Assembly: GCF_002356555.2 (NCBI RefSeq)
Contig: NZ_AP017372.2
Span: forward strand, 682,001 to 746,000
Reading direction: 5' to 3'
DNA: 64,000 nucleotides
Source: Halorhodospira halochloris
GTDB taxonomy: Bacteria > Pseudomonadota > Gammaproteobacteria > Nitrococcales > Halorhodospiraceae
Made by a program: the position numbers and the translations under genes. The notes beneath the pieces are model-generated. The model made no database searches. It was given only the letters and a program-made list of their open reading frames with translations, and was not told where the DNA came from. Shown one piece after another: positions 6,589-51,619 of this stretch; position 1 is the stretch's first letter; every line of letters starts with the position of its first letter.

Positions 6589-7992
6589 GGCACCTTCGCA
6601 ATCTGTGTGGGTGACACCCCCATCTACTCACGCAACCGCCGATCTACATATTGTGCCATAGGGTGAGGCAGGCAGATGGGTGAGCTTGCCAGCGATCAGG
6701 TAGCAGATGGAGATCAGATTCTTCGTGGTGCGAAATCCTCGTGCACGGCCCTTGGCAACTTGAATCTGACCGTTCATGCTTTCGACGGGGCCGTTTGATA
6801 AGCGAGAGTCAAAGGCGTTGAGGATGCCCTGCCAGTGAGCCTTGAGCGTTAACGCTAGGCGCTTGAACGGCTCCAGCCGGCAGCGCCGAGCCCAACTGTA
6901 CCAGGCGTTGAGGTTTTGCTCAGCCTCTCTGCGAGCACCACTGCCGGTCAGTATTTCGCGCAGTGCCTCCTTGAGCCGCCAGGCGCGGGCTGTTTTCAGC
7001 CTCGTCCGTGACAGGTAATGCAGTTCGGTGAGCTGCTTGAGCGTGTGCCGCGAGGCATCCTTAAGCCAGACCCAGCGAGTGCGCTTGAGCGCAGGCTCCA
7101 GGCGCACCTCGGCGCGGCGGACCTCGTCGACTGCCTGATTAGCCAGCTGCACCACATGGAAGGCGTCGAAGGTAATCGCTGCCTCGGGTAGATACCGCTG
7201 CACGCCGGCGATGTAGGCCTTGCTCATATCGATGCATACCGCCTCGACAGAGTCCCTATCGCCGCCGTGATCGTGTAGATCCGCCACAAACGCCCCAATG
7301 GTCGACTGGTTCCGCCCTTCGCAGGCAAAGAGTAGGCGTCGGTCATCAAGGTCCTGGAAGACAGTGATATAGTTATGCCCGCGCCGCGAGGCCGTCTCGT
7401 CGATGCCGACAGCGCGAACGTTGCTGAAGTCCTCCTGAGCACGGGCTGCTTCCACGTAGTGGTTGAGGATTCGCCAAATTGGGTCATCACCAACACCCAG
7501 GTAGTTAGCGACCTTCTGGACCGACATCTGCTGGCAGAGGGTAATGACCATCGCCTCGAACAACTGCGAGAACCCGCTGCCTGGACGCGCCCAAGGCACC
7601 TCGACCTGAGTGGTCTTCCCGCAGTCCTGACATCGCACCCTGGGCACGGCGGCATGGATATAGGCCTGGTGCTCGAAGAAATGCAGGTGCTGCCAGGAAC
7701 GCTGACGGGTGTCATGAACTGCTTGAGCCTCGGCGCCACAGGCCGGGCAGGCGAAGCGGCTGCCGCTGGTGAAGGTGATATCGAAGTCGATGCGCTTGGC
7801 CTGCGCATCAAAGCGGATGTCACTGACTTTCCAGGGTGCACTCAACCCAAGCGCGGCGGTGAACAGGGCGTGCTCAGTAGCCATGGCAACTCCTCGCAAA
7901 AATGGTGTGGCGAGGCACAACATATAGGATCACACCCAGCGTTGACTACCTCGTCTTAAGCTGCTGTCACCCACACAATTCGCGAAGGGACC
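6589..7992 (-). mobile_element. ISL3-family insertion sequence, copy 1 (1,404 bp)
   Basis: The ends are imperfect inverted repeats of about 28 bp, beginning GGCACCTTCGCA on the left and, on the opposite strand, GGTCCCTTCGCG on the right; both run into TGTGTGGGTGACA. The element is flanked by the 8-bp direct repeat AGTAATTG (6581-6588 and 7993-8000), a fresh target duplication of the size made by ISL3 elements. It is identical to copy 2 (14955-16358) in its encoded protein and, wherever I compared them, in DNA. Confidence 0.95.
6628..7884 (-). CDS. ISL3-family transposase (copy 1)
   Basis: 418-residue DDE transposase that moves the surrounding element by cut-and-paste. The N-terminal zinc-finger region (CPACGAEAQAVHDTR, then CQDCGKTTQVEVPW) is followed by a helix-turn-helix (SVQKVANYLGVGDDPIWRIL). 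Next comes the DDE core starting RAVGIDETASRRGHNYITVF, with the second Asp in FDAFHVVQLANQAVDEVRR and the Glu in SNGPVESMNGQIQVAKGRAR. The ATG at 7884 has GAGGAG five bases upstream. The frame is intact, so the element may still be active. Confidence 0.95.
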   Translation of the reverse strand: MATEHALFTAALGLSAPWKVSDIRFDAQAKRIDFDITFTSGSRFACPACGAEAQAVHDTRQRSWQHLHFFEHQAYIHAAVPRVRCQDCGKTTQVEVPWARPGSGFSQLFEAMVITLCQQMSVQKVANYLGVGDDPIWRILNHYVEAARAQEDFSNVRAVGIDETASRRGHNYITVFQDLDDRRLLFACEGRNQSTIGAFVADLHDHGGDRDSVEAVCIDMSKAYIAGVQRYLPEAAITFDAFHVVQLANQAVDEVRRAEVRLEPALKRTRWVWLKDASRHTLKQLTELHYLSRTRLKTARAWRLKEALREILTGSGARREAEQNLNAWYSWARRCRLEPFKRLALTLKAHWQGILNAFDSRLSNGPVESMNGQIQVAKGRARGFRTTKNLISICYLIAGKLTHLPASPYGTICRSAVA

Positions 7993-8000
7993 AGTAATTG
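7993..8000. repeat. Target duplication AGTAATTG, right of ISL3 copy 1
   Basis: Partner of 6581-6588. It lies directly at the edge of the IS200/IS605 element, so the ISL3 copy landed next to that element's tnpB-side end. Confidence 0.93.
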
Positions 8001-8060
8001 GTTGAAGTGACTGCTCCCCGCCCTAAGCGCTCAAGCGCCACGGGCGAGGCTTCCAACTTC

Positions 8061-9243
8061 TCAGGCAGCGGCGAGTGCGTGACTCGTCTTACGCTTGCCT
8101 CCATTGGCAGAGACCGACAGTCCTGCGGCCTTTAATTTCAAAATACCTTGTGCCTTGATATTCAAGGCTGCATCGATGTCTCGATCATGCCTGACTGAAC
8201 AAGCTGGACACTGCCATTCACGGACTTTCAGCGACAACTCTTCCAGCTTGTGTCCACAGCAAGAACAGGTCTTGGAGCTGGCAAGCCACTGATCAATTTT
8301 GATCAGATGCTTACCTTGCGCTTTGGCTTTGTACTCCAGCTTTTCGATTACGCCTGACCAACTGGCATCGGCAATGTGCTTGGACAATTTCTTGTTCTTC
8401 AGCATGTTTTTGACTTTCAGTGTCTCGACAATCACCGCTTGGTTTTCGTCAATAAGTTGTCGAGATAGCTTGTGCTGGAAATCAGCACGAGCATTTGCCA
8501 GACGCTGATGCGCCTTAGCGAGCTTAAGTCGGGCTTTTGCCCGCCTTTTACTGCCTTTTTTGCAGCGTGATACAGCTTTTTGCTTACGGCGCAGATTGGC
8601 ACTGGCTTTCTTTAAAAAGCGTGGATTCGGCTCTTTCGTTCCGCTTGAATCAATGGCTAGGTGTGTTAAACCCATATCCAATCCGAGCACTTTATCTTCA
8701 TTCAGGCTTTGGATGGGTGTAGGGGCTTCTTGCCCATCGTCATGCAGCAGTGAGGCATAGTATTCGCCTGTTACGGGATAGGGTGATGCTTTTCAGCTTG
8801 CCTTCAAGCTTGCGATGAATCCGCGCTTTGATTGGCTCTAGCTTGGGTACTTTGATCCAGTCATCACCACAGCCAACACTCATGCAGTGATAGCTCGATT
8901 GCTTGCCTTGTTTACGTTTGAACTTGGGACAACGGGAGGCAAGCTTCGGATCGAAAAAACGCTGAAAAGCCTGATAAAGATTGATACAGGCTTGCTGGAG
9001 TGCAATTGAATCAAAATCATTGAGCCAATGATACTTGCGGGACTTTTTCGCCACAGCCAGCAAGGGCTTGAGCTCTTTCTTGGCATTCAATTTCAGGCCA
9101 TGACGCTTGTACTGGCTACTGATGATATGCAGAGCCTTGTTGTACGCAAAGCGCACAGCACCGAACTGGCGGTTTAAAAACTCCGCCTGCTCAGGTGTTG
9201 GATAAATGCGTACTTTCGTAGCCTTTAACATTTCAGTGCTCAT
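8061..9243 (-). pseudogene. tnpB: tnpB (RNA-guided nuclease family), frameshifted
   Basis: Two adjacent frames together give a full TnpB/OrfB. The N-terminal part (MLKATKVRIYPTPEQAEFLN ... NKALHIISSQYK) runs from 9243 to about 8780. The reading then has to shift near 8775-8785 (TATCCCGTAACAGGCGAATA on the minus strand) to continue as GEYYASLLHDD. The C-terminal part has RuvC motifs LGLDMGLTHLA (Asp), AVIVETLKVKNM (Glu) and HDRDIDAALNIKAQG (Asp). The zinc finger CSCCGHKLEEL ... CPAC is also present. Apart from the single shift all key residues are kept, so inactivation looks recent. A read error is possible, as tnpA is damaged as well. Confidence 0.88.
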
Positions 9244-9307
9244 TGATATAATTCAATAATTATAAGCCATCAAGGTCATATTTCAAGTAAGTGCATATCA
9301 TAAAGAG

Positions 9308-9717
9308 TTGCTATCAGATTACCTCCGAAAACGCCACAGCGTCACCAAGCTGGTTGTACATCTGGTCTTTACCACCAAGTATACCGGCGAAAACTGTTCG
9401 ATGGTTATATGATTGAGCAGCTGAGCGAAGCGTTTGAGTCTGCTTGTGAAAAACTGGAATGTAACTTGCTGGAAATGGACGGTGAAGCGGATCATGTTCA
9501 TCTGTTGATAGCCTATCCAGCGAAACTGGCGGTAAGCATCATGGTAAACAACCTGAAGTCAGTCTCATCACGCCGGATACGCATACTCAATACCCATATA
9601 CCCCGCCAAAGCAAAAGTGCAGCAATCTGGTCGCGCTCCTACTTTGCCTGTAGCGCAGGCGGGGCAACGATTGAGACTTTGCGTGAGTATGTGCAGAGCC
9701 AAGCCACCCCTGAATAG
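9308..9717 (+). pseudogene. tnpA: tnpA (Y1 HUH transposase of IS200/IS605), frameshifted
   Basis: The N-terminal part reads SDYLRKRHSVTKLVVHLVFT and continues TKY. It must shift near 9380-9385 (AAGTATACCGGCG) to continue as YRRKLFDGYMIEQLSEAFES, then LLEMDGEADHVHLLIAYPAK with the HUH motif (HVH). The catalytic Tyr is probably the one in LREYVQSQ near the C-terminus. The start is probably the TTG at 9308. Length and motifs fit the usual 130-150 residues. Two stray bases at TATA would explain the break. Confidence 0.82.
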
Positions 9718-34796: not shown

Positions 34797-35414
34797 ATGG
34801 GTAGCGCTTTTTCACCAGGATTGACTGAGCTTATCGACTCGTTGCGCCGGCTGCCTGGTGTTGGTGCCCGGACCGCGCAGCGGATGGCGTTGCATCTAAT
34901 GCAGCGCGATCGTGATGGGGCTCGGCGGCTTGCAGCGGCCCTGAGCAACGCTGCAGACAGGGTCGGCGAGTGCCGTGATTGCGGTATTCTCACCGAGCAG
35001 CAGCTGTGCAGTATTTGCTCTAGCCCCAAGCGCGACCGTTCCCTGTTGTGCATCGTTGAGAGTAGCGCCGATGTTATCGCCCTGGAGCAGGCTACTGATT
35101 TTAGCGGCGTCTACTTGGTGCTCGGAGGCCAATTATCCCCGTTGGATGGTATCGGGCCCGAGGAGTTAGGGTTGGATCGCCTCGAGCAACGCCTTGCAGC
35201 TGGGCAGATAAGCGAGATAATCCTCGCCACCAGCCCTACGGTTGAAGGCGAGGCCACCGCTCATTATGTTCGCGAAATGGCTTGCGAGTATGCCGTGCGC
35301 ACTACCCGTATAGCCCACGGGGTTCCCATGGGCGGTGCACTTGAGCAAGTCGATCAGGGGACACTTTCTCACGCCTTCCTGGGTAGGCAAGAATATGGTG
35401 GTAGCTCACAATAG
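34797..35414 (+). CDS. recR: Recombination mediator RecR
   Basis: 205 residues. HhH motif LIDSLRRLPGVGARTAQRMA, the four-Cys zinc finger CRDCGILTEQQLCSIC, the Toprim domain LLCIVESSADVIALEQ with YLVLGGQLSPLDGIGP, and the C-terminal Walker-like THRIAHGVPMGGALEQVD-type end (here TRIAHGVPMGGALEQVD) are all present. With RecO and RecF it loads RecA at gaps. It is the last gene of the dnaX-ybaB-recR run; a nested pair of fold-back repeats follows. Confidence 0.97.
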   Translation: MGSAFSPGLTELIDSLRRLPGVGARTAQRMALHLMQRDRDGARRLAAALSNAADRVGECRDCGILTEQQLCSICSSPKRDRSLLCIVESSADVIALEQATDFSGVYLVLGGQLSPLDGIGPEELGLDRLEQRLAAGQISEIILATSPTVEGEATAHYVREMACEYAVRTTRIAHGVPMGGALEQVDQGTLSHAFLGRQEYGGSSQ

Positions 35415-35420
35415 GGGACT

Positions 35421-35655
35421 ATCCCTGGGCCACTTAACCGCTCCGGAGTGGAGGACGCCGTAAATCCGTCCCTGGAGGGTGCCTCTAAAACTTCGCCGGC
35501 GCCACTCATCCGCCCCGGTGTGGAGGTCTTGGCGCCAGGGATGGCGCCATGAAGCCTCCAGGGATGGATTCACGGCGTCCTCCACAACGGGGCGGATGGT
35601 GGCGCCGGCGAAGTTTTTAGAGGTTCCCTGGAGCGGTTGAGTGGCCCCGGGGGAT
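35421..35655. repeat. Nested fold-back repeats (copy C inner inside C outer)
   Basis: The outer element has arms GGGCCACTTAACCGCTCC (about 35437-35454) and GGAGCGGTTGAGTGGCCCC (about 35630-35648). Its core is cut after TCCCTGGAG by a complete second element (about 35479-35630). That inner element has its own arms, AAAACTTCGCCGGCGCC and GGCGCCGGCGAAGTTTTT, and the core in reverse orientation. TCCCTGGAG occurs on both sides of the inner element. The tips are GGTGCCTCTAAAA and TTTAGAGGTTCC. Confidence 0.9.
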
Positions 35656-35706
35656 TTAATGGTTCCGAATATAGTCCACTGTTCATATTCAGCTTGAGGA
35701 TGCAGG

Positions 35707-36054
35707 ATGTCAGTTGAGGAAATCTTCGCGCAGATTGCACGTGGCGAGGGTGACGCCGATGTCGTTTATGAGTCGGAGCAGGTGGTAGCCTTTCGCGACA
35801 TCAACCCGCAGGCCCCGGTACACGTGCTGGTCATTCCGCGTCGCCAGATCCAGACCCTGGAAGAGCTAACCCCCGAGGATGGTGATCTGTTGGGGGAGAT
35901 GTTCACTGCGGCGCGTGAAGTAGCCCGCCGTGAGGGCATAGCCCAGAGCGGTTATCGGACTGTATTTAACTGCGGCCCGGATGGTGGCCAGGAAGTCTAT
36001 CATCTTCATCTGCACGTAATCGGCGGCCGCCCGTTAAAGTGGCCTCCAGGCTGA
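35707..36054 (+). CDS. HIT-family protein, HinT-like
   Basis: 115 residues. Typical HinT path: SVEEIFAQIARGEGDADVVY, VAFRDINPQAPVHVLVIPRR, and the catalytic His triad in YHLHLHVIGGRPLKWPPG. HinT proteins hydrolyse purine nucleoside phosphoramidates. It stands alone between two fold-back repeats, with its own short upstream region and a ribosome site TTGAGGATGCAGG before the ATG. Confidence 0.93.
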   Translation: MSVEEIFAQIARGEGDADVVYESEQVVAFRDINPQAPVHVLVIPRRQIQTLEELTPEDGDLLGEMFTAAREVARREGIAQSGYRTVFNCGPDGGQEVYHLHLHVIGGRPLKWPPG

Positions 36055-36079: not shown

Positions 36080-36233
36080 TTCTCCGAGAAAAACTTCGCC
36101 GGCGCCACCATCTGCCCCGGTGTGGAGGTCTTGGCGCCAGGGATGGCGCCATGAAGCCTCCAGGGATGGATCCACGGCGTCCTCCACACCGGGGCATATG
36201 ATGGCGCCGGCGAAGTTTTAGAGGTTCCCCGAG
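36080..36233. repeat. Fold-back repeat, copy D
   Basis: Arms AAACTTCGCCGGCGCCACCA and (right) ATGGCGCCGGCGAAGTTTTA; core in reverse orientation (GGTCTTGGCGCCAGGGATGG ... GGATCCACGGCGTCCTCCAC). Right tip TTTAGAGGTTCCCC is intact, left tip altered. It separates the convergent HIT and HDOD genes. Confidence 0.93.
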
Positions 36234-49179: not shown

Positions 49180-49328
49180 GGAGCCGCTATAAACTCCCCA
49201 CTGAGCCTGGCTGCCTCGATGTGGAGGTCTTGGCGCCAAGGATGGCGCCATGAAGCCTCCAAGGAAGGATTCACGGCGTCCTCCACATCGAGGCAGCCAG
49301 GCTCAGTGGGGAGTTTATAGTGGTTTTT
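49180..49328. repeat. Fold-back repeat, copy F, between ppx and ppk stops
   Basis: Arms AAACTCCCCACTGAGCCTGG, CTGCCTCGATGTGG and (right) CCACATCGAGGCAGCCAGGC, TCAGTGGGGAGTTT; complementary throughout. Core reversed. It starts one base after the ppx stop and ends one base before the ppk stop, so it probably serves both genes as a terminator. Confidence 0.95.
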
Positions 49329-51468: not shown

Positions 51469-51619
51469 AGGGAACCTCTAAAACTTCGCCGGCGCCACCA
51501 TCCGCCCCGGTGTGGAGGACGCCGTGAATCCATCCCTGGAGGCTTCATGGCGCCATCCCTGGCGACAAGACCTCTACTGCGAGGCAGTTGGGCTCAGTGG
51601 GGAGTTCTTAGAGGCGCCC
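51469..51619. repeat. Fold-back repeat, copy G, with mismatched arms
   Basis: Left arm AACTTCGCCGGCGCCACCAT matches copies C-inner and D. The right arm GAGGCAGTTGGGCTCAGTGG, GGAGTTCTTAGAGG matches copy F instead. The two arms cannot pair over their variable part; only tips and core are complementary. Core forward. Confidence 0.9.

Follow-up and report, generated by a model that had tools for sequence, protein, structure and literature searches.

The Yersinia palindromic repeat YPAL/RU-2 is a mobile intergenic element of 168 bp that forms a long hairpin and whose sequence is printed in table 1b of PMC2759123. As described in PMC2229807, it occurs in Yersinia and Erwinia carotovora, inserts at targets with dyad symmetry, produces duplications of 3–26 bp and possesses internal instead of terminal inverted repeats. 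Table 1 of the latter paper also contains ERIC/RU-1, Correia/NEMIS and RUP, that is hairpin elements of 100–200 bp with a target duplication; in its account they have TA ends, and RUP is tied to IS630. The GTAG and CGTC REPs are described in PMC3733652 as repeated and mostly intergenic palindromes of 20–40 bp with stems of 5–13 bp.

Here, we analyze a nested repeat of Halorhodospira halochloris whose core, judged from its sequence, is homologous to the core of YPAL/RU-2 and which is likewise mobile, intergenic and able to form a long hairpin. In contrast with YPAL/RU-2 its terminal repeats are of IS5 type, its duplications measure 4 bp and its target is CNNNNG, and the combination of missing terminal inverted repeats with duplications of 3–26 bp was not found among 62 copies of the family. 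It resembles ERIC/RU-1, Correia/NEMIS and RUP in size, hairpin and target duplication but differs from them in its ends and in its sequence. With the GTAG/CGTC REPs it shares only the general character of a repeated intergenic palindrome; the account of these REPs in PMC3733652 describes no such core, and identity with them was rejected as the stem and loop descriptions given there do not fit.

The source genome consists of one contig with 2,834,560 bp, and the window, i.e. the whole stretch of 64 kb that was analyzed, has a G+C content of 54.9%. A single long fold-back structure lies between two genes that we take to be recR (end at 35414) and a HIT-family gene (start at 35707). It spans 35414–35667 and is composed of a younger fold-back copy inserted within an older copy of its own family (Table 1). 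The nesting is real and all parts described in the initial annotation are present: the inner copy is complete with long and paired arms, and the outer arms (35423–35444 and 35630–35651, separated by 185 nt) pair to 91% over 22 nt. That annotation had given the extent as 35421–35655, but the copies reach 35414 and 35667. The outer right arm does resume beyond the inner copy and pairs as claimed, but the outer core lacks its right half, which means that the arm resumes only after a deletion. Perhaps this half was lost between GGAG repeats, before or after the inner insertion. The outer copy aligns to the family up to the junction only, and its boundaries rest on the duplication and the alignment because its ends are degenerate. 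In the recR stop codon TAG the TA stems from the target duplication and the G is the first base of the outer element; the rejoined empty site would read through.

Table 1. Features of the nested locus and of the next family copy (window coordinates)
Feature	Position	Strand	Basis or remark
Outer-copy left target-site duplication AATA	35410–35413	no strand	overlaps recR stop codon 35412–35414
Left part of the outer (older) copy, with degenerate end GGGGAC, arm and one half of the core (GTGGAGGACGCCGTAAATCCGTCCCTGGA)	35414–35476	-	family match up to junction
Inner-copy left target-site duplication TGGA, in hairpin-2 loop of outer core	35473–35476	no strand	family flank statistics
Inner copy, complete 152-bp element, GGGTGCCTCT...AGAGGTTCCC	35477–35628	+	ends, folding
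Inner-copy core hairpin 1	35530–35549	+	sequence, alignment, folding
Inner-copy core hairpin 2 = 26-nt signature AGCCTCCAGGGATGGATTCACGGCGT	35553–35578	+	sequence, pattern scan
Inner-copy right target-site duplication TGGA	35629–35632	no strand	flank comparison
Outer copy, surviving right arm and end (GCGGTTGAGTGGCC...TTTAATGGTTCCG); right half of core absent	35633–35667	-	arm pairing, family alignment
Outer-copy right target-site duplication AATA	35668–35671	no strand	flank comparison
Next family copy, downstream of HIT-family gene; left tip (GGGNNCCTCT) clipped or missing, CGAG on both flanks (by eye)	36090–36229	+	sequence

The 9-mer TCCCTGGAG is found at 35469–35477 and 35625–35633, thus on both sides of the inner copy, but its interpretation as a 9-bp target duplication has to be corrected to the 4 bp TGGA. 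The preceding CCC of the right 9-mer is the inner element's own end. The opposite reading of the 9-mer as a mere part of both copies is half right: the element end, the preferred target and the outer core supply its five remaining letters, but the TGGA duplication inside stands. Folded as single-stranded DNA the nested unit of 254 nt reaches -104.7 kcal/mol (z = -15.0) and the inner 152 nt reach -75.3 kcal/mol (z = -16.0). In both cases none of 200 shuffles was equally stable, so the folding is far beyond chance.

With up to three mismatches tolerated, the genome contains the core 26-mer at 282 places (158 + 124, against 0 in the reversed control), and about ten family copies lie within the window. 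The copies have a long stem that carries an asymmetric core, whose two hairpins possess AGGGAT-like loops; the stems vary between copies yet mostly pair within each copy. The own copies analyzed are a sample of the 282 places. From 102 core places in the fetched loci 62 copies with two recognisable tips entered the duplication statistics, and 40 were excluded that had no two tips within 2 mismatches or too little flank. Each left-flank column was compared with each right-flank column, and the agreement above that of shuffled partners was recorded. The excess amounts to +33, +33, +39 and +26 points in four successive columns on one diagonal, with 0 and +2 beside them and a maximum of +17 elsewhere. 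The preferred base before the target is C (44 of 62) and after it G (39 of 62). This four-column agreement defines the element as GGGNNCCTCT...AGAGGNNCCC with a duplication of 4 bp and the target C-NNNN-G, while the initial annotation had suggested a test of other copies for 9-bp duplications. All four columns match in 28 copies, three in 8, two in 5 and none or one in 21, compared with expected values of 1.08 for four and 4.68 for three (binomial P about 1e-32 for the 28). The 21 copies with none or one matching column probably reflect age or misplaced ends. Inner TGGA and outer AATA at 35414–35667 both fall on the four duplication columns of the family.

Two copies deviate in their architecture. 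Copy L063 contains a tandem duplication within its core (ATGAAGCCTCC twice). A chimeric copy at 51469–51619 of the window (by eye) has a left arm like the arm type at 49211–49295 and a right arm like that of the inner copy; with such unlike arm types the arms are not paired along their length. This suggests recombination between copies.

For comparison of the recR–HIT region eight genomes of the same genus (G001–G008) were available from genome sets that by description contain one genome per species. In six of them the gap between both genes is 25–37 bp; the remaining two are not comparable, as one (77% complete) gave no RecR match and the other has no HIT gene in the stretch. The corresponding gap in H. 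halochloris is 292 bp and shrinks to 35 bp once the element and one AATA are removed, with CACAATATAG as the reconstructed element-free sequence of the locus. Of four genomes outside the family but within the order, two have the HIT gene adjacent to recR (49 and 116 bp) and two do not.

Nesting is not confined to this locus. In 7 of the 62 copies the flanks, once freed of the insert and one duplication, reconstitute another family member that continues across the junction. Five of these have perfect 4-bp duplications, namely L006, L022, L023, L027 and L222, with rejoined alignments of 38, 107, 114, 82 and 37 bp that extend 17, 48, 55, 12 and 9 bp beyond the junction, respectively. The outer copy is fully continuous across the junction in L022 and L023, and L027 was inserted at the same TGGA site as the inner copy of the window. 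The sixth (L220) has a duplication of only three matching columns, and the seventh (L240) is dubious because its ends are probably misassigned. Eleven more copies, the inner copy of the window included, show a family match on one side only. Of the 28 copies flanked by perfect duplications six, the window copy among them, are located inside another copy. Measured against the 1.5% of the genome that the copies occupy (282 × about 150 bp) this is a clear excess (P 3e-6), whereas against an assumed intergenic share of 12% there is no significant enrichment (P 0.11). Some of the insertion targets are hairpin loops of other family copies. Nested copies date each other since every nest shows the order of insertion.

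The element is with high probability a non-autonomous DNA transposon (MITE), presumably moved in trans by an IS5-family DDE transposase. Such an enzyme would cut the ends and join them to a 4-bp staggered break. The older copy would have come first, inserting at the end of recR and duplicating AATA, and the younger one would have followed into the hairpin-2 loop of the older copy, thereby duplicating TGGA. Sites of the C-NNNN-G type are present in the loops of the element's own core (CCCTGGAGG, CATCCTTGG). They were hit by several insertions, and this would account for the nest. The passenger would be a three-way junction with two hairpins of similar loops, homologous to the YPAL/RU-2 core.

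In principle the locus could be a static terminator or a hairpin at mRNA 3'-ends that merely seems nested via local duplication or slippage. Such a role would suit the very stable folding, the intergenic position of 46 of the 47 own copies (crude gene calls), the listing of a Yersinia relative as sRNA in Rfam RF02770 and the statement in PMC2229807 that YPAL/RU-2 is expressed with upstream genes and perhaps affects RNA stability. It is nevertheless very unlikely in the face of target duplications, empty-site spacing and rejoinable outer copies. The only intrinsic terminator detected between 35300 and 36300 is located at 35742, i.e. outside the element, and no T-run terminator occurs within it. 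Copies outside open frames are found between genes in all three arrangements (9 of 46 own non-genic copies between divergent genes), and their orientation relative to genes is unbiased (same in 27 and opposite in 40 cases from three sets, P 0.14). Long open frames, as crudely called and some of them possibly spurious, contain 1 of 47 own copies, 2 of 32 from Methylotuvimicrobium buryatense and 22 of 83 from other genomes. The initial annotation regarded the unit as mobile and MITE-like and not merely as a static terminator, a view upheld by the 4-bp duplication, the empty-site spacing in six of eight relatives and the five other nests. An origin of the nest through recombination among copies or through template switching, instead of transposition, is likewise very improbable in our view. 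The chimeric copy with two unlike arms (by eye) and the missing right half of the outer core could be read in this way, but both borders of the inner copy coincide with exact element ends plus the 4-bp duplication, and the other nests keep the outer copy continuous, either fully (L022, L023) or for 17, 12 and 9 bp on the short side (L006, L027, L222).

Two further types of mobile element were weighed against the IS5-type MITE. Hairpins and high copy number are also properties of REP/REPIN-type elements moved by a RAYT tyrosine transposase on single-stranded hairpins, and Y1 transposases are present at six places in the own genome and at four in M. buryatense. However, none of the four Y1 genes of M. 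buryatense has a core (up to 5 mismatches) within 1.5 kb, and in the own genome only one of six has a single core about 1.5 kb off, while cores on both sides occur at none of them. A 4-bp duplication with inverted ends is typical of DDE transposition and, to our knowledge, Y1 transposition creates no target duplication, which leaves this origin scarcely credible. The GGG tips suggest a miniature element of the Tn3 family (TIME), and the genome does encode a Tn3-family transposase with an end that likewise begins GGGG. But this end (GGGGTCGTCTCAGAAAACGG) is unlike the family ends, and Tn3 transposition yields 5-bp duplications while the family shows exactly 4 bp; descent from Tn3 is thus extremely unlikely.

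The ends and the 4-bp duplication appear to resemble a subgroup of the IS5 family, and a 4-bp target duplication, as in IS5-family elements, is supported by the flank statistics given above. That an IS5-family transposase is the mobiliser is what we infer, because only a broken relative was found in the genome. A profile search with PF01609 gave six places. One of them (L089) is a broken IS5-like transposase gene, interrupted by three stops in the matched frame, and behind it lies the inward-facing end TTTATAGAGGCTCCC. This gene is the only one of the six with an inward-facing tip of this type (up to 2 mismatches), and a left end could not be found for it; at a second place (L084) a nearby tip-like sequence faces away from the gene. 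The initial annotation had suggested looking for a transposase gene with matching ends, and searches with PF01609, PF01797 and PF01526 revealed no intact one in this genome but solely the broken L089. A DNA search of the own genome for further copies of this gene returned the self-match only.

Among 141 plasmid records the ten matches listed have 39.7–42.6% identity to the L089 fragment and are mostly annotated as IS5 family. Four relatives were fetched, two with recognisable ends (GGGCGCCTCGAAAAACC or GGGCACCTCGAAAAACC) and two with none. The IS5-family elements of the Acidithiobacillus caldus SM-1 plasmid have the ends GGGCGCCTCGAAAAACC / GGGCGGCTCGAAAAACC, and the A. caldus-type ends read GGGNNCCTCNAAAAAC. 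Three of five full A. caldus copies have 4-bp duplications (TCTA, CGTA and TATA) together with a less similar tip GGGCGGCTCG on one side; a matching 4-bp duplication is absent from the two others and from the pWW0 copy. In two of the four relatives the terminal repeat GGGNNCCTCTAAAAAC of the H. halochloris element resembles GGGCGCCTCGAAAAAC / GGGCACCTCGAAAAAC, a likeness of only about 17 bp. The tips of these insertion sequences, GGGNN(C/G)CTCGAAAAAC in the IS5-family comparison, and the 4-bp duplications in three of five A. caldus copies are the shared features. On the other hand the A. caldus insertion sequence encodes a transposase, whereas the H. halochloris element has none and contains an unrelated, structured interior. 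The IS5-like remnants at L089 lie, as does L215, at 2.24–2.26 Mb of the genome beside a gene which is presumably a transposase of another family, and about 12 kb beyond them a Tn21-like Tn3 transposase gene (605-aa frame) is located. The window itself contains at 6628–9717 an ORF of 431 aa that we take to be an ISL3-like transposase, presumably followed by TnpB-like pieces and a fragment of a Y1 transposase; a PF01797 match lies at 9382–9702.

The distribution of the core was followed with a pattern scan of genome_contigs that gave at least 118 stretches, among them ones from Xanthomonas, Stenotrophomonas, Marinobacter, Microbulbifer, Ectothiorhodospira and methanotrophs. With up to 2 mismatches the core is present in 45 of the 369 gammaproteobacterial genomes searched, representing 40 of 272 genera, the own included (reversed control 0). 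The maximum in one genome is reached in M. buryatense with 454 places (446 by a second pattern). The predicted three-way-junction core ranges much wider than ends of the H. halochloris type. On plasmids and phages no blastn match was obtained at E 1e-3 with a single 86-base query, a weak test with its variable arms, and a search for core sequence strings in paper texts gave no match.

Arm pairing was evaluated in an unpicked set of 114 copies, with at least five omitted that were too close to the stretch end. In 102 of them pairing within the copy beats 95% of the cross-copy controls (median 22 vs 4). For covariation a core alignment of 44 rows was used, comprising 43 of the 118 stretches picked by hand after viewing 80 and one window copy; its counts are biased toward paired copies because truncated or unpaired stretches were among those dropped. 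It shows double changes at 24 of 29 predicted pairs. In the variable pairs 92.8% of the cells are Watson–Crick, 2.3% G-T and 0.9% A-C, i.e. 24 G-T and 9 A-C among 1048 cells (P 0.027 vs shuffled partners, with cells that are not independent). These patterns indicate that the pairing is maintained, and it may be so as DNA or as RNA alike.

The homology with YPAL/RU-2 is based on agreement at 21 of 22 fixed signature bases and on a score of 40.7 bits against the 44-row profile, compared with at most 11.7 in 500 shuffles. The H. halochloris element therefore seems to present a known type of core in a new setting of IS5-like ends and 4-bp duplication. No paper tying YPAL to non-enteric species was found within the limited literature collection searched. 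The consensus of Rfam family RF02770, Ysr224 (Yersinia sRNA 224), includes the reverse complement of the core. Against this model the window scores 22.2 and 19.1 bits, which is below the gathering score of 70 and does not make it a member; three of six other stretches gave 26–28 bits. RF02770 shares the core with the element but is catalogued as sRNA and not as mobile DNA, and the Ysr224 entry may describe transcripts of the mobile element YPAL/RU-2. The present case connects a repeat known from Yersinia, with a relative listed as sRNA, both to elements from 40 of the 272 sampled genera of Gammaproteobacteria (the own included) and to transposon ends of a definite class.

In other genomes the same core is combined with other tips. 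Among 36 distinct copies from M. buryatense 17 have TATACC...GGTATA-like tips, 4 have GGAACGAGCATG-like tips and 15 have neither or partial ones. In one of its copies (L342) a GTTAGCA tandem repeat reappears when the element is taken out together with one TA; this single TA duplication tested represents, in one copy, a second type of duplication. A third type of end, TTACTAACCTTTCGG...CCGAAAGGTTAGTAA, is found in the copies of genome G009 (L295–L308). The tips of H. halochloris, M. buryatense and G009 thus show one core with unrelated types of ends. Tentatively, as a serious possibility that falls somewhat short of probable, we propose that the YPAL-type three-way-junction core is a portable module of miniature transposons with unrelated ends across Gammaproteobacteria. 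It would be moved by different transposase families, its outer stem would be rebuilt by complementary changes and the core would aid the spread or the tolerance of its carrier. Alternatively, the ends have simply diverged. If the core is portable, one can test why a non-coding fold stays while its surroundings change, and in which form, DNA or RNA, it acts.

Two observations concern the arms of these copies. In L295–L308 a base change near the tip is often matched by a complementary change on the other side (by eye). Among L334–L363 of M. buryatense, where at least two unrelated sets of ends occur, L334, L350 and L355 carry an extra segment in the left arm with CGCCATCCATGGCG.
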